Assembly: GCF_031458175.1 (NCBI RefSeq)
Contig: NZ_JAVDXX010000001.1
Coordinates: forward strand, 1,488,001 to 1,552,000
Length of the DNA: 64,000 nucleotides
Origin: Pseudoglutamicibacter albus
GTDB taxonomy: Bacteria; Actinomycetota; Actinomycetes; Actinomycetales; Micrococcaceae
Reading direction: 5' to 3'
Positions 6,860 to 17,031 of this stretch are shown piece after piece. Under the pieces are notes generated by a model. The model saw only the letters and a list, made by a program, of their open reading frames with translations, had not been told where the DNA came from and ran no database searches. The position numbers and the translations under genes were made by a program. Within the stretch, counting starts at the first letter, position 1. Every line of letters starts with the position of its first letter.

Positions 6860-7819
6860 TTATGCCCTGCGGCGACTCATGATGCCGTCCAAGTCCAGCG
6901 CTTCCTGGAGACGTTCACGCTCAGCACGTTCACGCTCAGACTTACGGATCGAGGTAACCTCTTCAGGCTTCTTCTCTTCCTCCGCCTGGAACGGTTCGGC
7001 CTTCTCGCGGTGAGCCTCAGGCTTAGACGCGTAGCCAGGGGCCGGAACCTTGTGCGGAACCCAGCCTTTACCGGCCTTAGTCGCTTCAGCCACGCGCTGT
7101 GCTTCCTCCGAGCCTTCTTCGGTCTCGGCGTCGGCTTCTGCCTCGGTATCGGCATCAGCGTCTAGTTCATCCTCAGCGGCGGCAGCAGCTTCTGCCGCCG
7201 CCTTTTCAGCCTCAGCTTTACGCAACGCCTCAGTATCAGCTACGAAATCGAACGGAACTTCCGAGGCGGATACTTTCGGCGCCGGTTCCTCAACTACGTC
7301 CTGTTCCGCGCTTTTCTCGGCATCTGAACCAGTAGCAGACTGCCCCTGAGCGTCGCTATCCTCCTCAGTGTTGCTGTGCTGTTCAGGCGCGGCTGTTCCG
7401 CGCTGGGCTGACGTGTTCTCCGTGCCTGCGGCGGATGCGGAGCTTTCTACATCCATTTTGGACGCATCGGACGTATTCTGCTCGGTGGATTGTTTCTTAT
7501 CTTCCGAAGACTCAGCCTTGATCGCGGCATCCGAGTTCTGCGCAGGTTTACCCTGCTCGTGCTGCGCGGCAACCTGTTTCGCTGCGCGCTTCCACGCTTC
7601 TTGACGGCGCTCCTGAACAGCCCACGTACGTAACGTGATCAACGTTCCGAAAGCGATCAGGAAGCAGACGAGCGGCCACCACCAGCTCATCGGCGTCAGT
7701 GCGGCGAGCCCCACGAAAACTGGCGCGCCCACCAAAGCTAGGGCACCAATCAGTGCTGCGCTAAATCGTCCCCAACGGATCTTGAGGCGTCCTTGTGAGC
7801 GCTGTGCATCTGCGGTCAT
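6860..7819 (-). CDS. Membrane protein with long acidic Ala/Glu-rich cytoplasmic tail, function unknown
   Basis: The 319-residue product has two adjacent membrane helices (about residues 20-40 and 46-64), then a basic segment (RRQEAWKRAAKQ), then about 240 residues dominated by Ala, Glu, Asp, Ser and Lys with near-repetitive runs such as DADADTEAEADAET. The last 30 residues are strongly charged and predicted helical, ending DLDGIMSRRRA. No enzymatic motif is visible. Two-helix proteins with long disordered tails often scaffold at the membrane, but no function can be assigned here. It is transcribed divergently from the folate cyclo-ligase gene. Confidence 0.75.
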   Translation of the reverse strand: MTADAQRSQGRLKIRWGRFSAALIGALALVGAPVFVGLAALTPMSWWWPLVCFLIAFGTLITLRTWAVQERRQEAWKRAAKQVAAQHEQGKPAQNSDAAIKAESSEDKKQSTEQNTSDASKMDVESSASAAGTENTSAQRGTAAPEQHSNTEEDSDAQGQSATGSDAEKSAEQDVVEEPAPKVSASEVPFDFVADTEALRKAEAEKAAAEAAAAAEDELDADADTEAEADAETEEGSEEAQRVAEATKAGKGWVPHKVPAPGYASKPEAHREKAEPFQAEEEKKPEEVTSIRKSERERAERERLQEALDLDGIMSRRRA

Positions 7820-7998
7820 GCGCCCTCCTCGGTAGATTGAAGATAGGTCGAAAAGCTTTTCTCAAATAACGCTAACGACATAGAACACAAGAACACGGGA
7901 GTTCATCCGGTGTGTTGTTACTAAACTACAGCAATGTAAGTGCAATTCCGCAAGTTTGGCGACAAACTATTGTCCCAAGATGTTCCCGGAGCTTTCCT

Positions 7999-8604
7999 GT
8001 GAAAAAACACAGCAAAAGGGTGATGCGATCACTGATCCGCTCTGCGCGTCGCCTACGCGGCGGCGAAGCTAGGCGGTCAGCAGCCTCCGGTTTTGCGGCC
8101 CATGCCCCAGACGTGTTGCGTCTTGCTCGGCGCGTAACGCCGGGCGGAACAGCGCCAGTGGTCCTCGCCTACATTGCAGCTGATACCGAACCAGATGTCT
8201 CCCTCGCCATGCGCGAGTTATACGATGCAGGCGCTTGTGTTGCGGTTCCTCGCAGCCTGCCAGGCGCTCGCATGAGCTGGGTGCGTTGGGCGCCGGACCT
8301 CCCCATCACGACGGGAACGGTCGCACCTGTGCCGGAACCTGCCGGCGGGAAGGAACTGACACTCCCCCGGCATCCGATGCTGGTCATATTGCCCGCCTTA
8401 GCCGTTGATGCCGCAGGCGTACGGCTGGGGCAGGGCGGAGGATTCTATGACCGTTTCGTTGAAACCCTCCCACAAGGCTCAGTCTTGATCGCTGCTGTGT
8501 TCGAGGACGAGCTGTATCCGGCTGGCGATGTACCCGCCGAGCCGTGGGACGCGGTGGCCAACTACGCCTGGACCCCGGAAGGCCTTCACCAGCTGGGCCG
8601 CTGA
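7999..8604 (+). CDS. 5-formyltetrahydrofolate cyclo-ligase
   Basis: The enzyme converts 5-formyl-THF to 5,10-methenyl-THF with ATP. The signature GQGGGFYDRF is visible near the C-terminus, as are the N-terminal basic helix (RSLIRSARRLR) and the central PVVLAYIAADTEPDV strand. I chose the GTG at 7999 (201 residues, close to family length) because GGAG sits 7 nt upstream. A longer frame from 7912 would add 29 unconserved residues. It is followed by the SAF-domain gene on the same strand. Confidence 0.88.
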   Translation: MKKHSKRVMRSLIRSARRLRGGEARRSAASGFAAHAPDVLRLARRVTPGGTAPVVLAYIAADTEPDVSLAMRELYDAGACVAVPRSLPGARMSWVRWAPDLPITTGTVAPVPEPAGGKELTLPRHPMLVILPALAVDAAGVRLGQGGGFYDRFVETLPQGSVLIAAVFEDELYPAGDVPAEPWDAVANYAWTPEGLHQLGR

Positions 8605-8774
8605 CCCATTGCGGCGAACCCAGCCGAATTCACGCTCGCGGTACCCAACCGTTTCCCGTACCGGTTCCTGTGTTTCTACTGTTCCAGTATTCACACCACA
8701 TGCACCCCGGGGCTTCATCCACATTTTCGGCGCCACACCTACCCTGGCTAGCGGTGGCGGCCAGGCTGGTGTGC

Positions 8775-9512
8775 ATGAAGCTGATTTCAAACCATCGGTC
8801 ACCGCAGTCTGGCTCGCGAACCCACACCCCACGCACCTCTGCGGGGCGCCTAGCTAAGCCCCGCCGCACGCCGGCGGAGTGGTGGCATTCGCATCGGCGG
8901 CTCGTGGCCGCGGCGAGCGCTTTCGGCTTTGTTGGGCTTGGATTGAGCATTGTGTCGGATCACGCGCCGCAGCGGGTCAGTGTTGTTGCGCCGGCTCATG
9001 ATGTTGCGGCAGGGAAAGCGCTGACTTCCGGGGATCTAACAACCGTGGAACTGCTGGGTTCTGCACCGGAGGGGGCGTTGACGCAAGCGTCTGTGATTGA
9101 GGGGCAGTCGCTTACGGTGGATTGGCCTGCTGGGGTGCCGTTGCACGAGGCGGCGATTGCTGGCTCTGAGATGTTGCGTGAGGTCTCCCCTGGGCATGCT
9201 GCTGTGGGTGTCTCGCTGTCGCACACGGTCTCCGCGGGCTTCTTGAGGCGTGGGGATCAAGTTGATGTTGTGTTGACGCGTGCAGATGAAGTGGGCGATG
9301 TGCACACCGAGGTGATCGCAGCACGCGCCAAGGTCTTGTGGGCGGGTTCACCGGATACCGCTGCCGATTGGCTCCCTTTGGGTAAACAGGACTCCGAGGG
9401 AGCGATTGTGGTGCTGGAGGTCAAAGAAGATCAAGCCCCGGTGGTTTCGGCGGCGCATCAGCGCGGAAGTGTCACGTTGGTCATTCGCCGTCCAGGAGGG
9501 AAGGGCGACTGA
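8775..9512 (+). CDS. SAF-domain protein, CpaB/RcpC-like
   Basis: A basic N-terminus is followed by one membrane helix (LVAAASAFGFVGLGLSIVS), an SAF domain (AHDVAAGKALTSGDLTTVEL ...) and a CpaB/RcpC-like C-terminal domain containing RRGDQVDVVLTR. CpaB proteins line the secretin channel of Flp/Tad pili, but no other tad gene is present nearby. In actinobacteria such orphan SAF proteins often neighbour the folate cyclo-ligase gene. The start is uncertain: the frame is open from 8544, and 8775 is the last ATG before the basic segment, without a strong Shine-Dalgarno sequence. That choice gives 245 residues. Confidence 0.75.
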   Translation: MKLISNHRSPQSGSRTHTPRTSAGRLAKPRRTPAEWWHSHRRLVAAASAFGFVGLGLSIVSDHAPQRVSVVAPAHDVAAGKALTSGDLTTVELLGSAPEGALTQASVIEGQSLTVDWPAGVPLHEAAIAGSEMLREVSPGHAAVGVSLSHTVSAGFLRRGDQVDVVLTRADEVGDVHTEVIAARAKVLWAGSPDTAADWLPLGKQDSEGAIVVLEVKEDQAPVVSAAHQRGSVTLVIRRPGGKGD

Positions 9513-9549
9513 CGTGAACGGAGTGATATACGGGTGCATCGAGGGTGCC

Positions 9550-9654
9550 AGGCACGCCGAGTCTAGGTTCACCGGGACCAGGTCCACCGTGGCCGGGCAC
9601 GCTGGATCTAGGTTCGCCCGGGTCAGGTTCACCGAGTCTAGGTTCGCTTCTGAC
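9550..9654. repeat. Degenerate 15-bp tandem repeat, about seven units
   Basis: Units start at 9550, 9565, 9580, 9595, 9610, 9625 and 9640, most beginning AGGTTC (for example AGGTTCACCGGGACC, AGGTTCACCGAGTCT). The 15-bp period means five codons. On the minus strand it reads as NLTRA, NLDPA, DLVPV, NLDSA, which resembles the A(N/D)LxX pentapeptide-repeat pattern. Confidence 0.8.
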
Positions 9655-9813
9655 TCCAGTGCGGAGGCATCTCCGCTAACAACGCCGCGTCCCCAGGTTG
9701 AGGGTCTTCGTCCTGGCTACGTTGCGAAGGCGCCACGACGTGAGAAACTCCCTTACGTTGCGCGGGATCAGCGGGTAGGTCAGCATCCCAGGACCCCACA
9801 AGGTCGGTCGGTT

Positions 9814-9837
9814 TCCCACCCAACCGTGTGGGTGGGA
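9814..9837. terminator. Hairpin between convergent genes
   Basis: TCCCACCCA (9814-9822) and TGGGTGGGA (9829-9837) pair perfectly with a 6-nt loop. The hairpin lies just beyond the stop of the helicase-like gene and could serve either strand. There is no T-run. Confidence 0.5.
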
Positions 9838-9864
9838 CTACCGCGACTCTACGGCGCCGACCTG

Positions 9865-12800
9865 TCACGATTCCTGCCCGTCCGAGCCCGGCCCGTCCGA
9901 TTCCTGCCAAGGAATGTGAACCTCAGGAACCTCAACTCCAGGCACGTCAACACCGAGTTGCGAGGCGATGTCACGAGCCACCGCATCGGGGTCTTTGAAC
10001 ACGTCGATGGTCCACAGCTGGACCGGCTTCCACCCACGGTTCTCAAGCGCTTCAGGGACAATACGTGTGCGGCTACGCACCGACTGTTGCGCATACTCCG
10101 GGGAGGAATCCACGCTGATCGCAAGCGGCGCAGTCTTGAGCCACACCGGCCCATACACCGCCATGTCCACGCCGAAACCAGGGTGCTGGATCACGATGAG
10201 GTCATAGGCCTGGAGCCGTTGAGACAAGTCCGCCATCAACGCACCCACATGCCACTGCTGCCCCTGGGCCGCATCGGCAGAATGCTGTTCCCAGCTTGCC
10301 GCGAGCGTTGGCGTTTCGGTCTGGGTAGCGGTCTTGAAGGCAGGCCGCAACAGTTGGTATGTGCGCGGCTCTTCAACCGAGCGCATCAAGCGAGTCAACA
10401 GCTCCATCCCGGAACGCGCCGGGGTCTTGTCTTCGAGCGGGCCGCTGTGGGCCACAACCATGCGCTCTTCAAGCTCCTCAAGCGGCAGAGCACACACCAG
10501 ATACAGTCGCGAACGTGCAGCCGAAACGCTCGTCATCACATACCGCAAACCGTTACGGCTATTCAGCTCACCAAAATGCTGAGGCTGGCGCCCCTGCGGG
10601 CTGTTAGCGAAACCCAACGAGAAAATCACGCTATCGCGCCGCAAACCATCAACACGGTCAGCCGAGGTCACAATAAACGGCTCATACCGCCGCTGGAAAG
10701 CGGGCATCGCGTTCGGATGATGCGGAAGCGCATTGCTGATCCCACGAGCCAACTGCTGGGCATGCTCGGCGGTACCGGCGATCACGGCAAGGGAACGGTG
10801 AGGATGCTGAGTGAGTTGCTCAAACACCAGCCGAACAACCTTCTCAACCTCAGTCGGGGTCGAGGTCACGGTGCCGCGGCCCGCTGGGGCATGCGGATGT
10901 TCAATCCGGATCAGCTCAACACTGGACTCGGCGGTAGCCGGAGTTGGATAAGCCTTCATTCCTTGCTCGTATTGAGCGCTCAACGTCTCGATGAAACGCT
11001 CATCCAGAACACGATTATTGCGTCTCAAACTACGGCGCAACGTCACCCGGTTCAAAGCCTCGAACGCGCTCAACGGGGTGTCTTCTCCCCTGCCTGCGTT
11101 GAGGGGCTTATCAACCTCGACGTTCAACCGCAGCGGCACACCCGTGTTCGGATCACCGATAGCCAGAACCTGATCAACGCGGCTGATGGTCGTCAACGAA
11201 GACTCAAGCGCCAGCGACTCCGCATCAAGCAAGATCGCGGCATCGAAACGCGACCAGCGCGGCAAAACGGTCGGCAAATACAGCGGGGCTCCCACCCAGA
11301 CAGGGGTCGCCGAACCCACAACCGCCGGAGCGAGTGCCGCAAGTTGCTGCGGGGTCGGATCCCCCACCTTCAGCAACGCACGCATATCGCGGGCACCTAC
11401 CCGGTGATCAGCGATCGCAGCCTTCCACCGGTACGCGAGTGCCGCAGCCACCCGATCCGCGCCCTGAACAATATGGAGAGCATCCGCGCGCTCGAACTCC
11501 TCGCGGATCTTCTCCAGCTCCTCGGAGCTCTGCAACGCCAGATAGTCGTCTCCGGAAATCATCGCTTCCAGGACCGACTGCCACCATGCAAGCTCAACCT
11601 CTTGCTCCAGAGCATCAAACTTCACATGGCGTTGCGCGAAATCATCCAGGAGCTCACCCAGCCCCTTCTCGCGCAACGTCTCCATCAACAGTGTCCGCTC
11701 CGGCAAGGTTTCCAGGTCAGACTTCTTCTCTTGCAGCAACGCCAATCGCTGCTGCAACGCATCCGTGGGAAGGGAATCCAGCCGGGCCTCGTGATCGGGC
11801 AGCACCGACTGCAACTGGTTCAAGCTACTCAACACGTTGCGGAATGTCTGAAGAACCCGCTCAAGCCCCGCCGGGATCGAAGGGTACCGGTTGTCAGTGG
11901 CAAGGCTCTCCCACTCAACCCGTTGCTCACGCACCTGAGTGAGCGCCGTATGCAAGTCATCGATGTGCACGCCAGGGCGCACGTATTCCTTAGCGACGCG
12001 ACGCAGACGAGAACGGGTCATCGCAGACATCTCAACGCCGCGTTCACGACGCCACTGCGAAGGCGCTGTTGCAGCGATCAAGTCATCGACCGGTTTATCG
12101 AAAATATCCGGTTCGAACAGGTCCAAACTACGCCGCACCGCAACCAAAAGACGCAACGTATCGCCCCACTGAGCGAAAGACTCAACGGGCTTGATCCGCG
12201 TCGAAGCCGCGGTGTTCTCAAGAGTCTCGCACAAGTCCGGGACCGAATCCGCAAGCTCATTGACCAAAGCAACCGCCGCCTCGGCCTCCCCACGGTTACG
12301 CAGCCGCGAGCCATACCAGGGGCTATCCAGCGACTCTTGAGAGAAGCCACCCAGCTCAGCCACACGCTGCAACTGCTCGACCACCGGCGCCCTGTCCGGC
12401 ATCGCGTCCAAAACCGAGCGCTTCAAACGCACAGTGGTTGCCGGCGCGTTCTCACCGGAAGACAAACGCGCAAGCTCCTGCATCGCATCCAACGGGGAGG
12501 CGCCCCACCGCGAACGCACCGAATGCAACGAACGGATATGCTCCACCAGATCGCCCCGGTAAGCGCGAGCCACGGCATCGTTCGCCGAAGAATCAGCTCC
12601 GTGGGTGCGTTCGTTACGCAAGATCGCGTCCGTGAGCCGTTCACGCAGCACTTCCGGATCGGCGTTACGGTCAAGCTTCACCAGCGTCGTGTCAAGGCTC
12701 ACGCGGGCGAACCTCTCCGTGACCTGCTGGATCGTGGACTCCCGCTCAGCAACGATCAGAACTCGTTTACCGTCAGCCGCCAAGCGAGCCGCCGCGTTGA

Positions 12801-13824
12801 CAGCCAAGTTGATGCGTTCCGAACCCGGTGGCGCACTCACCGTGACCGACTTACCCTTAGACACCGCATCCAAGACCGCGTAGGCGTCGTCATCCACATC
12901 GGTAACCAGAAGCTCATCAGCTGGGTCCCGATCATCAGCGCCCGGGGTCAGGACATCATCCACGAGGCTCTGCGCCTGCTGGGGAGCGACCCCTTCATGC
13001 TGGTCAGCAACGAGCTCGTGATACCCGGTATCAACCTCCTGAATGTCAGCGACCTTCGTCGCCAAATCGTACGAAGCGCCCGCGTCCTCATCGACCGGGG
13101 CGAACTCATCGAGCAGAGCCGCGATGATCGGGTGGTTCACCGAAACAACAGATGGGTCCACCGGATCGCTAGCGGTCGCAATCGTCGAAACGCACACGCG
13201 GTCTTCAATCACGATGTTCGTGTTGGCTTTCGCCGCGATGTCACGCAACAGGTTCACCGGCCCCGTTGGGTTGAAACGCGCGGTCCTGTACCCGGCGTTC
13301 AACACATCATCAGGATGGATATCAAGCCCGTAGGACGTATTCAGAAACCGCAGAAGAGTCTCATTAGGCACCGCACGGCCCATCAGCTGCAACTCTTCAT
13401 CGTCAACACCGTCACGGCGCTGCAACGAAACACGGCCCAGCATCAGCGGCGAGGAGTAATACTCTGTGCGGCCCGAACGCAGCGTACGCCACGTGACCAA
13501 ACCAGCCGCAACATAACCCACGTCAACGCCGCGGGACTCAGAAATTTCACGCACACGCGTAGCTATAGCCCGCACCGTGGAACGCGCTTGCTTGTACTGG
13601 ACCGGGTCACGCAAAAGCGTGGACAAGCGGGTGCGGCGACCCGTGAGAAACTGCGCCAAACCAGAGCGGTGGGCATGCGTCAGCTCAACCGCGTTCTTCT
13701 CCGTGGGAACAAAACGCAACAGCGAATCCGTACCAGCCGAACCACTCAACGACTGAACCCAGTCACGAAAACGAGTCTCGGGGGTCTGCTGTACGCTCAC
13801 CTGATTACTCACTCCATCCTCCAT
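9865..13824 (-). CDS. DUF4011 / SF1-helicase-like protein with degenerate motifs and C-terminal nuclease-like domain
   Basis: The 1,319-residue product resembles the large DUF4011 helicase family. An N-terminal DUF4011-like region lies at about residues 15-200 (GYVAAGLVTWR, SPLMLGRVSLQRR, NTSYGLDI). An SF1 ATPase-like core follows, split by a long helical insert (about 400-830), and an Mrr/Vsr-type nuclease-like domain closes the protein at about 1205-1295 (GFGVDMAVYG ... GWKPVQLWTIDVFKDP). The catalytic motifs look lost. The P-loop position reads APPGSERI (331-338) without GKT/S. The DEAS box is LLDAES (865-870). The GDPKQLPP box is GDPNTGVP (890-897). The arginine-finger segment is MTSVSAARSR. 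The nuclease ExD/ExK position reads AISVDSS. A GTG at 13812 preceded by GGAGGA is an alternative start. The gene lies downstream of guaA on the same strand. Its role is unknown. Confidence 0.8.
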   Translation of the reverse strand: MEDGVSNQVSVQQTPETRFRDWVQSLSGSAGTDSLLRFVPTEKNAVELTHAHRSGLAQFLTGRRTRLSTLLRDPVQYKQARSTVRAIATRVREISESRGVDVGYVAAGLVTWRTLRSGRTEYYSSPLMLGRVSLQRRDGVDDEELQLMGRAVPNETLLRFLNTSYGLDIHPDDVLNAGYRTARFNPTGPVNLLRDIAAKANTNIVIEDRVCVSTIATASDPVDPSVVSVNHPIIAALLDEFAPVDEDAGASYDLATKVADIQEVDTGYHELVADQHEGVAPQQAQSLVDDVLTPGADDRDPADELLVTDVDDDAYAVLDAVSKGKSVTVSAPPGSERINLAVNAAARLAADGKRVLIVAERESTIQQVTERFARVSLDTTLVKLDRNADPEVLRERLTDAILRNERTHGADSSANDAVARAYRGDLVEHIRSLHSVRSRWGASPLDAMQELARLSSGENAPATTVRLKRSVLDAMPDRAPVVEQLQRVAELGGFSQESLDSPWYGSRLRNRGEAEAAVALVNELADSVPDLCETLENTAASTRIKPVESFAQWGDTLRLLVAVRRSLDLFEPDIFDKPVDDLIAATAPSQWRRERGVEMSAMTRSRLRRVAKEYVRPGVHIDDLHTALTQVREQRVEWESLATDNRYPSIPAGLERVLQTFRNVLSSLNQLQSVLPDHEARLDSLPTDALQQRLALLQEKKSDLETLPERTLLMETLREKGLGELLDDFAQRHVKFDALEQEVELAWWQSVLEAMISGDDYLALQSSEELEKIREEFERADALHIVQGADRVAAALAYRWKAAIADHRVGARDMRALLKVGDPTPQQLAALAPAVVGSATPVWVGAPLYLPTVLPRWSRFDAAILLDAESLALESSLTTISRVDQVLAIGDPNTGVPLRLNVEVDKPLNAGRGEDTPLSAFEALNRVTLRRSLRRNNRVLDERFIETLSAQYEQGMKAYPTPATAESSVELIRIEHPHAPAGRGTVTSTPTEVEKVVRLVFEQLTQHPHRSLAVIAGTAEHAQQLARGISNALPHHPNAMPAFQRRYEPFIVTSADRVDGLRRDSVIFSLGFANSPQGRQPQHFGELNSRNGLRYVMTSVSAARSRLYLVCALPLEELEERMVVAHSGPLEDKTPARSGMELLTRLMRSVEEPRTYQLLRPAFKTATQTETPTLAASWEQHSADAAQGQQWHVGALMADLSQRLQAYDLIVIQHPGFGVDMAVYGPVWLKTAPLAISVDSSPEYAQQSVRSRTRIVPEALENRGWKPVQLWTIDVFKDPDAVARDIASQLGVDVPGVEVPEVHIPWQESDGPGSDGQES

Positions 13825-13873
13825 GGCACGTCAATACTCCACGGTAGTTCACGCGAGCCAGCAGAACGCGCAA

Positions 13874-13920
13874 CGCCGCGGCAAACACATGCATCTACAA
13901 CACAAGCGGTTGCCGCGGCG
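13874..13920 (-). terminator. 11-bp inverted repeat between guaA and the helicase-like gene
   Basis: CGCCGCGGCAA (13874-13884) and TTGCCGCGGCG (13910-13920) are perfect inverted copies separated by 25 nt. The position downstream of guaA suggests a terminator or attenuator, but the loop is long and no T-run follows. Confidence 0.45.
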
Positions 13921-13983
13921 AAACGCTCACAACCCCAACAAGCGGGCCCACAACCTGCCCAGTGGGGGCTTCTCAGGCGAGGA

Positions 13984-15573
13984 TTACTCCCATTCGATAG
14001 TTCCCGGTGGCTTCGAAGTCACGTCAACCACCACGCGGTTGACCCCATCGACCTCGTTCGTGATGCGGTTAGAGATCTTCGCGATCAGCTCATACGGCAG
14101 GCGCGCCCAGTCCGCTGTCATCGCGTCCTCACTCGTGACAGGACGCAACACAATCGGGTGTCCGTACGTGCGGCTATCCCCCTGGACACCCACCGAACGA
14201 ACATCCGCGAGCAGCACGACCGGCATCTGCCACACTTCACGATCCAGGCCGGCGTTCGTCATCTCCTCACGGACAATCGCATCGGCCTCCCGCAACAGAT
14301 CCAGACGCCGCTTATCCACCGCACCAATGATGCGGATACCAAGACCTGGACCGGGGAACGGTTGACGGTGAACAATCTCATCCGGCAAACCAAGCTCAGT
14401 ACCTACCGCACGGACCTCATCCTTGAACAGTTCACGCAGCGGCTCAACCAGCTCAAATTCAAGGTCTTCCGGCAAACCGCCCACGTTGTGGTGGCTCTTG
14501 ATGTTGGCAGCACCTTCGCCGCCACCGGATTCAACAACGTCCGGGTACAGCGTGCCCTGGACCAAGAACGCGACGTCCTCACCTTCAGACTCAGCGATAA
14601 TCTCCGCTTGGGCACGCTCAAACGTGCGGATGAACTGCTCACCGATGATCTTGCGTTTGGTCTCCGGGTCAGTGACACCCTTGAGTTTGTCCAAGAACAC
14701 CTCGGAAGCGTCAACAACCTTCAGCACGGCCCCACCGTGAGCCTTACCGAACGCCTGCTCGATCGCTTCCGATTCACCAGCACGCATCAAACCGTGGTCA
14801 ACATACACGCATGTGAGCTGATCCCCCACAGCGCGCTGAACCAAAGCCGCAGCAACCGCGGAATCAACGCCACCGGACAAGCCACAGATAGCGCGCTTGG
14901 TGCCGATCTGTTCGCGGATCCGGGCAACCTGATCCTCGACCACAGACTGCGCAGTCCAGTCCGGGCTCAAGCCAGCCGATTCGTACAAGAAGTTCTTCAA
15001 AAGCTGCTGACCGTGCGTGGAATGCTGGACCTCTGGATGCCACTGGACACCGTAAAGTTTGCGGTCCTCGTCAGCGAAAGCAGCCACCGGTGTGCGCTCC
15101 GTGGACGCCAGAACTGCGAACCCCTCAGGCGCCTCGGTCACGGCGTCCCCGTGGCTCATCCACGCGATCTGCGCATCCGGCAAGCCATCAAAGAGCGTGC
15201 ATGTCTCGCCCTTGGACGACACGGCGGTCGAGCCATACTCGCGCTGGTTGGTGTGCGAAACCGTGCCGCCCAAAGCGTTCGCCATCGCCTGGAAGCCATA
15301 ACAAATACCCAAGGTTGGCAAACCGGTCTCAAACAAGCCCTCAGGAACCTTCGGCGCGTCGTCGGCATACACCGAAGACGGACCACCGGACAGGATCAGG
15401 GCAACAGGGTTCTTCGCCAGGATCTGCTCGGTCGAAAACGTGTGCGGAACAACTTCCGAATACACGTTAGCCTCACGTACACGCCGAGCAATCAGCTGCG
15501 CATACTGGGCCCCATAATCGATCACGAGCACCGGGCGCGGATGCGGGGGATTTACTGCAGAAGTCACGTTCAA
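13984..15573 (-). CDS. guaA: GMP synthase (glutamine-hydrolysing)
   Basis: GuaA aminates XMP to GMP with glutamine and ATP. The class I glutaminase domain has nucleophile Cys91 ([10 protein letters not shown]) and the His179/Glu181 pair (QWHPEVQHS). The ATP-pyrophosphatase domain carries the P-loop SGGVDS at 233-238. The dimerisation domain ends [11 protein letters not shown], the usual GuaA terminus. At 529 residues it is full length. It follows the DUF3817 gene by 34 bp on the minus strand and together with guaB and guaB3 forms a guanine-nucleotide region. Confidence 0.97.
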
Positions 15574-15607
15574 AGCCTATCGCGTTTACAGTGCACGATG
15601 CGCACGT

Positions 15608-16120
15608 TCAGTACCGGCGCAGCTGTTGCGGATTCTTTTGAAGCTCCTCAACAACCTGCTGGTGAACCTTCTTCTCCATCACAAACGAAAGGAACGGAAC
15701 CACCCCGCCCAACGCGATCAGGATCAACTGTTTCAAGTCCCACCGCATGCGGGACCACAACATGAACGTCGCCAGCAAGTACACAACATAGAGCCAGCCG
15801 TGCACAATCAACACCGCAATCGAAACGTTGAACGCATCGACCACCATGCCAGGCTCAGCCAACGTGAACACGTTCGCCTCACCCGTGCGCAGCATCGTGC
15901 CGCCCGCATACGCGATCAAGTTGAACGCGTACTTCAGCACCATCTCAACAACCAACAGCAACAACATGACACCGGTCGCATACGCGGCGATACGGAAGAA
16001 CACCGCCGCGCCACGGATCTGGGTCTCAGTCCCGCCGAACCCCTGCCTACGTTGCGGCATCGGGTCATCCTCTGGAATAGGAACATCCTCCGGACGTGGA
16101 ATGCCATTCTGCTCAGTCAT
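15608..16120 (-). CDS. DUF3817 family membrane protein
   Basis: A 40-residue polar, Pro-rich N-terminus is followed by FFRIAAYATGVMLLLLVVEM and two further membrane helices, then a basic/polar tail (KKVHQQVVEELQKNP). The layout and the position beside guaA match the actinobacterial DUF3817 family, whose function is unknown. It starts 2 bp after the SURF1 stop codon, so the two are almost certainly cotranscribed, and guaA follows 34 bp on. Confidence 0.85.
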   Translation of the reverse strand: MTEQNGIPRPEDVPIPEDDPMPQRRQGFGGTETQIRGAAVFFRIAAYATGVMLLLLVVEMVLKYAFNLIAYAGGTMLRTGEANVFTLAEPGMVVDAFNVSIAVLIVHGWLYVVYLLATFMLWSRMRWDLKQLILIALGGVVPFLSFVMEKKVHQQVVEELQKNPQQLRRY

Positions 16121-16122
16121 CT

Positions 16123-17031
16123 CTACCCGTTCTCTCTACTTTCCGGCCCAGCAACACCCGGCGCTGAATCATCGCCTGTCCCGGCCTCCGGCTGGGTTTC
16201 GGTTGCGAGCCGCTGCCGCGCTTCAGCCTGAGCCTGTGCAACGCGGGCATCCTGCCGCTTCTGCCAGGCAGCCATCTCGGCCTCAAACTTCAATTCGTTC
16301 TGATAATCATCGCGAACCAGGCGCCACCACACAAACAGTGAGAACAGAGCGAACACAACCCACTCAACGCCATAGAACACGTTGAGCCAGTTCAAACGGT
16401 TCTCCTGCAAATACCCCGGCGCAACATACACGTGTTTCAGCTCATCTACCCCGGCCTTGACATCGTCCGGGCTCTGTTCAAACACCACCACGAAACCGGC
16501 ATAAGCATCCCGGTTCCACATGTTCGACAAACGGGCCGCCGAGACGTCCTTCAAGACCGGCAGACCATGCATATCTGCCGAGCGGCCGGAAGCGATCGGC
16601 GCTTCAGATGGCAATAAACGGCCCGTGATGGTCACCTCGGTTGCGTCCGTGGCAGGCGGCACCTCCGTCTCGCCAGGTTGCCACCCCCTCACAACCGGCA
16701 TCACATCAGAGACACCGTCGACCTCGAAAGCCTGAACAACCCAGAACCCCTGCTCGCCCTCAAAGAGCCGGTCCTGAACATAAGCCTGCGTGCCTTCGAT
16801 GTAGCGGCCCTTCATCGTCACGATTTGATCAGCGTCCGCGTGAGTCATGTCCTTGCCCGGCTCAAAATGGCTCTCAAGCGGGACCGCTGTCTCTGACTTC
16901 TCTTGCGTGGTCGGCGCGTAGTCCATGGCCCGTTCAAACTGCCATTTACTGAGCCAAACGAACCCGGTTGACACCACCAAACACGCAAGCAGCAGTGCCA
17001 GCCATTTAGGTTGAAGCGCAGTCTTGAACAC
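16123..17031 (-). CDS. SURF1 family protein (cytochrome oxidase biogenesis)
   Basis: SURF1 proteins help assemble haem-copper oxidases. The sequence has a first membrane helix (LALLLACLVVSTGFVWLS) with the conserved SKWQFERA just after it, a central extracytoplasmic domain with VMPVVRGWQP (compare the family VxRGW motif), and a second helix near the C-terminus (WVVFALFSLFVWWRLV). The frame is open upstream to 17121. GTG at 17031 is chosen because it yields the usual short N-terminus (FKTALQPKWLALL) and AAGGGG precedes it. GTG at 17052 or TTG at 17121 remain possible. A long Ala/Gln/Arg tail closes the protein. Confidence 0.85.
   Translation of the reverse strand: MFKTALQPKWLALLLACLVVSTGFVWLSKWQFERAMDYAPTTQEKSETAVPLESHFEPGKDMTHADADQIVTMKGRYIEGTQAYVQDRLFEGEQGFWVVQAFEVDGVSDVMPVVRGWQPGETEVPPATDATEVTITGRLLPSEAPIASGRSADMHGLPVLKDVSAARLSNMWNRDAYAGFVVVFEQSPDDVKAGVDELKHVYVAPGYLQENRLNWLNVFYGVEWVVFALFSLFVWWRLVRDDYQNELKFEAEMAAWQKRQDARVAQAQAEARQRLATETQPEAGTGDDSAPGVAGPESRENG

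Follow-up and report, generated by a model that had tools for sequence, protein, structure and literature searches.

Helicase homologues that have lost their catalytic motifs are already known as a kind, and the DUF4011 family is known as well. In RecC and AddB, according to PMC4824097, the inactivated helicase domains have kept the superfamily 1 (SF1) topology with most or all of the motifs lost and are reused as DNA scanners; AddB is described there as UvrD-like, and both proteins work inside complexes. The PriA protein of Deinococcus radiodurans is a bacterial helicase homologue which has been termed a pseudohelicase (PMC4504706). In the present study, a 1319-residue DUF4011 protein of Pseudoglutamicibacter albus (family Micrococcaceae, phylum Actinomycetota) has been analysed, encoded in a stretch of 64,000 nucleotides (contig NZ_JAVDXX010000001.1, positions 1,488,001 to 1,552,000; the window), for which an earlier note had proposed a helicase-nuclease homologue that is catalytically dead and retained in a non-enzymatic role. 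Our results support this proposal: the ATPase centre is lost, the loss of the Walker A lysine is wider than that note saw, intact orthologues exist and the gene is under purifying selection. No report of a DUF4011 pseudo-helicase was found in the open-access literature searched, most subscription journals being outside its scope.

PriA belongs to a different helicase family and is not known to be fused to a nuclease fold. ProA, Hhe and PDC-S37 have the same domain order as the window protein and are homologous to it over much of the chain, but their Walker A (GxxxxGK[ST]) and Walker B (DExx) signatures are absent from it, its nuclease Glu is lost as well, its scores lie far under the equivalog cut-offs, it has no Pfam match to DUF3320 and its locus belongs to the core genome. 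MTES_1575 of Microbacterium testaceum, the namesake of the Vsr-type nuclease domain, is described as having >2100 amino acids with transglutaminase, HEPN and two winged helix-turn-helix domains (PMC3710099); it is a different protein. In Pseudomonas aeruginosa a large DUF4011 core gene is described as flanking the defence hotspot cDHS1 (PMC10250203). Likened by description only, it is core to its species as the window gene is, whereas its locus is a defence hotspot.

Loss of the ATPase motifs and partial loss of the nuclease residues

The gene and its recognizable parts are listed below.

9865..13824, minus strand: DUF4011 pseudo-helicase/pseudo-nuclease gene, 1319 aa, ATG start, single uninterrupted open reading frame (ORF)
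13342..13617, minus strand: DUF4011 Pfam match, residues 70-161
12811..12834, minus strand: Walker A remnant APPGSERI, residues 331-338, with R337 at the lysine position
11500..12564, minus strand: helical insertion of 1B type, residues 421-775, the larger part of which equals the motif I segment in conservation among dead Micrococcaceae
11215..11229, minus strand: motif II remnant LDAES, residues 866-870, replacing DEASQ
11140..11157, minus strand: motif III remnant GDPNTG, residues 890-895, replacing GDxxQL
10507..10524, minus strand: motif VI remnant SAARSR, residues 1101-1106
9955..10185, minus strand: MTES_1575/Vsr-like nuclease fold, residues 1214-1290, with Asp1220 kept and Glu replaced by Ser at 1237

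In intact orthologues (e.g. L108; L, G, C and f are our labels for loci, genomes, contigs and families) the corresponding motifs read GPPGTGKSQT, FDVVIFDEASQI, GDERQLP, IDLAVE and AVETDG, where the window protein has APPGSERINL, FDAAILLDAESL, GDPNTGV, VDMAVY and AISVDS. The stretch that starts at FD and ends at the motif III GD is 32 residues long in the L108-type intact proteins and the window protein alike, and therefore the alignment of FDVVIFDEASQI with FDAAILLDAESL is ungapped. In motif II the Walker-B Asp is replaced by Leu, the catalytic Glu by Asp and the Gln by Ser. The P-loop GTG and T are likewise gone in the genus of the window. A pattern scan of the whole protein found neither [AG]xxxxGK[ST] nor DE-any-[QHDS], so that an intact Walker A or B elsewhere in the chain, named in the earlier note as the sign of a misreading, is absent.

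The reading of the gene as long and uninterrupted and of its P-loop as APPGSERI was thus correct. The DEAx box had been read as DAES, which holds for the catalytic loss but is one residue out of frame, and the GDxxQL box is altered to GDPNTG as read, with its GD remaining. Hence the claim that every key residue is lost was too strong, since D1220 (the first nuclease Asp), D1239 (within S-V-D) and the motif III GD survive. The altered motif VI and the loss of the nuclease Glu are true of the window protein but do not extend to the whole family: the first Arg of motif VI is present in 74/80 rows of the named-genome alignment, and ESDG with its Glu in 52/80 rows, the Asp in 76/80 (an Arthrobacter-rich set).

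None of the 56 sequences of the family alignment (the window and 55 loci, without the duplicate L001, L009, edge fragments and the paralogue) has the Walker lysine, Gln standing in its place in 40 of them. It is likewise missing from 80/80 rows that were usable in the named-genome alignment (79 loci and the window), a set for which the best 80 had been kept out of 410 relatives. A further 80 orthologues were hand-picked from 17 other families of the order to cover families, so that proportions are not random; f10 and f18 were left out and one sequence has no letter at the lysine site. The lysine is retained in 9 of the remaining 79, namely 2/2 in f5 and 7/10 in f17. Its loss covers the sampled family and most of the sampled families of the order. 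Among the 103 rows that have a letter at the lysine site, seven of them from beyond the order and one being the intact paralogue, all related by descent (counts are not independent events), the Walker-B D-E pair was found in 11/11 rows with the lysine and in 0/92 without it. Nuclease Asp and Glu are both present in 8/9 lysine-bearing order sequences, in 5/70 lysine-less ones and in 4/16 Micrococcaceae representatives; nuclease loss tracks the loss of the ATP site less strictly than Walker-B loss does.

A conservative route to loss was observed outside the order, in f25 and f38 (L216-L223), where the Walker lysine is replaced by Arg in G[TS]GR[TS]QT; motif II is eroded too in L216-L221.

Predicted folds

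The DUF4011 match scored 33 bits, above the Pfam cut-off of 22.2, and the MTES_1575 nuclease domain 31.6 bits, under its cut-off of 38.2. No AAA/helicase Pfam domain was found at E<=10, and a sequence search of the PDB gave nothing at E<=1. Three-dimensional structure was considered at the level of predicted models. For residues 17-1125, an AlphaFold2 model made with 41 sequences had a mean predicted local distance difference test score (pLDDT) of 82 and a predicted template modelling score (pTM) of 0.62. The structure alignment A2 comprised the window and 40 of the 80 named loci (L146 left out, the others dropped at >=85% identity), A3 was 29 of the 41 rows of A2, the rest being removed for long tails, and A1 had 35 rows.

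The model of residues 17-1125 matched Dna2 (Z 20.4, root-mean-square deviation (rmsd) 5.8, 491 residues aligned), IGHMBP2 (Z 20.2, rmsd 6.3, 484 aligned) and Upf1 (Z 19.6, rmsd 5.6, 462 aligned), whereas UvrD (Z 16.4, rmsd 4.0, 310 aligned) fell below these SF1B proteins at about 20. The 50 structural matches listed include neither RecC nor AddB. The strand-loop-helix of the P-loop is retained in the model. The predicted C-terminal piece (residues 1126-1300, pLDDT 78) matched NGO0050 (Z 9.3, rmsd 2.3, 85 aligned) and I-Bth0305I (Z 8.5, rmsd 2.9, 89 aligned); Foldseek gave no match for the nuclease domain at E<=0.001, and the Z of 9.3 came from a second aligner. On these predicted models, the helicase part has an SF1B (Upf1/Dna2-like) fold and the C-terminus a Vsr-like nuclease fold, a similarity at fold level, and together with the Pfam match they bear out the proposed architecture of DUF4011, SF1 core and, as a fold, C-terminal nuclease, for which structure prediction had been suggested as a check.

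Distribution and selection

A match was present in 245/245 sampled Micrococcaceae genomes from 32/32 genera (in G073 as a contig-edge fragment only). Among 159 genomes of the order, 12 of them from Micrococcaceae, 156 matched at E<=1e-20, of which 147 still did so at E<=1e-100. Nine fell between these limits (G253, G261, G268, G272, G277, G284, G292, G299 and G330); their weak matches may be paralogues, and these lineages may have lost the gene or altered it strongly. Three (G297, G310 and G364) had no match at E<=1e-20. In the class sample 20/118 genomes matched at E<=1e-20, eight in the order and twelve outside it. The closest named relatives, among the best 80 of 410, were P. albus (99% identity) and P. 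cumminsii (83%). One record titled as an Acidobacteria metagenome-assembled genome (L195) holds a typical Micrococcaceae copy and is probably a mislabelled or contaminated bin.

In 55 family loci one frame is open across the match, in one of these 55 cut by the locus edge. The flags for internal stops were found in 11 of the 12 inspected loci (L083 left out) to be matches that cover a single open frame almost to its end. The ratio of nonsynonymous to synonymous substitution rates (dN/dS) was 0.02-0.25 in 16/16 pairs by a simple counting method with no control gene; between the window and two sister species it was 0.12-0.14 overall and 0.04 in the motif II-III segment. The gene is kept under purifying selection and is not decaying. 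The orthologue comparison which the earlier note had proposed thus shows the lysine in 0/56 family sequences with constrained reading frames, and not the frameshifted or decayed copies that it had named as the contrary outcome.

In seven intact orthologues, motif I (identity 0.70) and motifs II-III (0.60) are the most conserved segments, and the 1B segments stand at 0.40/0.37. Across sixteen dead Micrococcaceae the value for motif I is down to 0.55, which the 1B segments, at 0.55/0.54, now equal. This relative rise of 1B conservation is clear in Micrococcaceae only. A 1B insert that has drawn level with motif I in conservation suggests that the protein binds without ATP, in a role like that of RecC/AddB. 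A clear conservation shift away from the ATP motifs had also been considered and was softened, as motif I is tied with 1B in the dead Micrococcaceae.

Gene neighbourhood and number of losses

The neighbours of the gene in the window are the following.

13984..15573, minus strand: guaA (GMP synthase), with GATase and GMP_synt_C domains, 159 nt upstream of the pseudo-helicase gene on the same strand
8544..9512, plus strand: SAF/RcpC-domain gene, convergent neighbour, common to loci outside the family
7912..8604, plus strand: 5-formyltetrahydrofolate (5-FTHF) cyclo-ligase gene, the next shared neighbour
6863-7819, minus strand: ORF without Pfam match

Neighbours matched by Pfam were guaA, DUF3817, SURF1, SAF/RcpC and 5-FTHF cyclo-ligase. 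At the family loci guaA was present in 59 of the 61 holding the gene (L057 ends inside the gene and L059 has no guaA match; several of the 61 overlap or share one genome, and L002 and L003 are paralogue loci) and in 10/12 further ones (L064-L075), L074 and L075, of the same genus as L059, being without it. In the fetched flanks of the other-family loci L076-L133 it was found in 0/58. The adjacency to guaA is a feature of Micrococcaceae, and at least one genus of that family lacks guaA there; it had been noted correctly for this locus but does not hold beyond the family. A function in a guaA operon was accordingly rejected as a general explanation.

Outside the family another neighbour is shared. 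By direct tblastn recount, MscL lies near the gene in 25/40 other-family loci and 0/21 Micrococcaceae loci, and the SAF-domain gene near 23/40 and 17/21; clustering of all ORFs, shadows included, had given 25 and 25 of 40 for MscL and SAF. In 6/6 intact order loci with long flanks (L108, L109, L110, L114, L118 and L119), MscL stands directly beside the helicase gene in convergent orientation, and it is near 19/34 dead loci outside Micrococcaceae; Pfam confirms MscL at L104, at L121 and at all six of these intact loci. Active and dead versions look like one gene inherited in place, and with MscL beside both, the active ancestor was probably converted in place.

On the quick tree of the order (62 rows, without the fragments L112 and L113 and without L222 and L223, Micrococcaceae thinned to 16) three changes are required, two of which are forced by starred branches. 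A single grouping of all 54 dead rows was not rejected (approximately unbiased test, p-AU 0.193), and one clade also accommodates the 48 dead rows that remain when the K->R group is taken out (p 0.547). Going by these sequences, one to three losses of the ATP site are compatible with the tree. Several independent losses, as a firm claim, were not upheld, given that a single dead grouping was not rejected.

Elsewhere in the genome there is an intact DUF4011 helicase-nuclease paralogue of 1801 aa (L239:2346-7748; G000:C1 ~890.8-896.2 kb) with GPPGTGKSQT and DEASQ, which scores 1102 bits with the ProA model against the cut-off of 1500. It is a candidate variable defence gene. In the same-species draft genome G001 only the pseudo-helicase match was seen and no second one, and therefore the paralogue is not an obligatory partner of the pseudo-helicase. 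Two neighbouring ORFs of 1108 and 1273 aa at C1 ~1394-1401 kb (L280, L281, L283 and L285) each carry PDDEXK_1 and UvrD-helicase, and we take them to resemble AdnAB. With such separate ORFs in the genome, end resection need not depend on the pseudo-helicase.

Proposed role and alternative explanations

On balance we favour a vertically inherited pseudo-helicase/pseudo-nuclease which has lost its ATP site, is held by purifying selection and would serve an ATP-independent binding role. The ancestor would have been a single-chain protein of DUF4011, SF1B helicase and Vsr-type nuclease, still intact in some related lineages at a comparable site; it would have lost the Walker A lysine and the complete Walker B pair and have been kept under purifying selection afterwards. 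The present protein may bind nucleic acid, partner proteins or both with no ATP cycle, using the pair of RecA-like domains, the 1B arm and DUF4011, in the manner of the inactivated helicase domains of RecC and AddB; it probably works by gripping them and not by unwinding. Its most likely role would be in the maintenance or surveillance of the genome, as a scaffold or sensor, and the structural or sensing function of the earlier note would be of this kind; the binding, the partners and the pathway are inferred. A broader formulation, put forward more tentatively, is that an ancient single-chain helicase-nuclease was converted in most of the order to a core ATP-independent DNA-binding or scanning protein, a RecC-like fate for an SF1B ancestor of defence type, of which active and dead descendants still adjoin the same neighbour gene. 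RecC/AddB and the window protein both have an SF1 fold without ATP motifs, but the best structural matches of the latter are SF1B Upf1/Dna2 and its gene has no adjoining partner gene.

Several observations weigh against this explanation. No helicase or nuclease partner gene adjoins the gene in the conserved neighbourhood inspected, and dS is close to 1 in several pairs of the control-free dN/dS count. In the dead Micrococcaceae motif I, at 0.55, still equals the 1B segments; among the dead sequences from the other families, in which every segment is flatter, 1B (0.37/0.36) is no higher than motif I (0.38) or motifs II-III (0.36). Because motif I is tied with or above 1B in the dead sequences, some function of the P-loop region may persist. 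Of the 92 lysine-less rows, 40 have the Walker-B Asp and four the Glu, never both. Moreover, the nuclease of many relatives may still work, because its Glu and Asp are so often kept in the named-genome rows.

A protein of about 1300 residues, found in nearly all sampled genomes of the order with its ATPase centre lost and its nuclease centre in many cases eroded, is a natural experiment in which a motor-nuclease has been turned to another use, and active and dead orthologues beside the same neighbour gene permit direct comparison. It is also a warning that in homology-based annotation the label of helicase or defence protein could be put on hundreds of core genes.

A special case of the favoured explanation, unlikely in our judgement, is that the protein is the inactive partner of a helicase-nuclease encoded elsewhere, such as the AdnAB-like pair or a DUF4011 paralogue. 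RecC/AddB provide the precedent as described in PMC4824097, and the two neighbouring PDDEXK/UvrD-helicase ORFs would provide a candidate; on the other hand, a paralogue is not obligatory, none having been seen in the draft genome G001, and the conserved neighbourhood shows no partner.

It is quite improbable that the protein is an atypical active helicase with a non-canonical site at which ATP is bound or hydrolysed. GTGQTQT, an acidic residue close to motif II and the Arg of motif VI are present in many relatives, the predicted model retains the P-loop strand-loop-helix, and motif I is among the most conserved segments of the dead Micrococcaceae; but where the Walker lysine is lost the Walker-B D-E pair is lost with it, the genus of the window is without the P-loop GTG and T, and the window protein has no other P-loop.

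We give an equally low chance to a DUF4011 anti-phage protein (ProA/Hhe/PDC-S37) still acting without its ATPase, for example in sensing phage DNA. The best named profile matches are indeed defence models, PADLOC PDC-S37 (E 4.1e-67) and NCBIfam ProA (NF058533, E 2.9e-56). The scores are far under the curated equivalog cut-offs (ProA 190.8 bits against 1500; Hhe, NF042953, 104.1 against 2000), though the ProA cut-off is also missed by the intact orthologues L108 and L114 and by the intact paralogue. Further, almost every sampled genome has the gene, and its neighbours are housekeeping genes, unlike the case of the paralogue, which was not seen in G001.

A pseudogene in slow decay, to which the lost catalytic residues and the further erosion in the genus of the window might point, was rejected as hardly conceivable on the near-universal presence and the frames open across the match, with no stops or frameshifts and dN/dS at 0.02-0.25, not near 1, a verdict that holds unless selection acts on DNA or RNA only.

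Other features of the locus

No sigma-70-like promoter was found in 9300..16300. An antisense ORF of 2119 aa with a TTG start (9406..15765, plus strand) shadows the pseudo-helicase gene and guaA; the shadow-ORF cluster spans 60/61 compared loci and is most likely an effect of codon composition.

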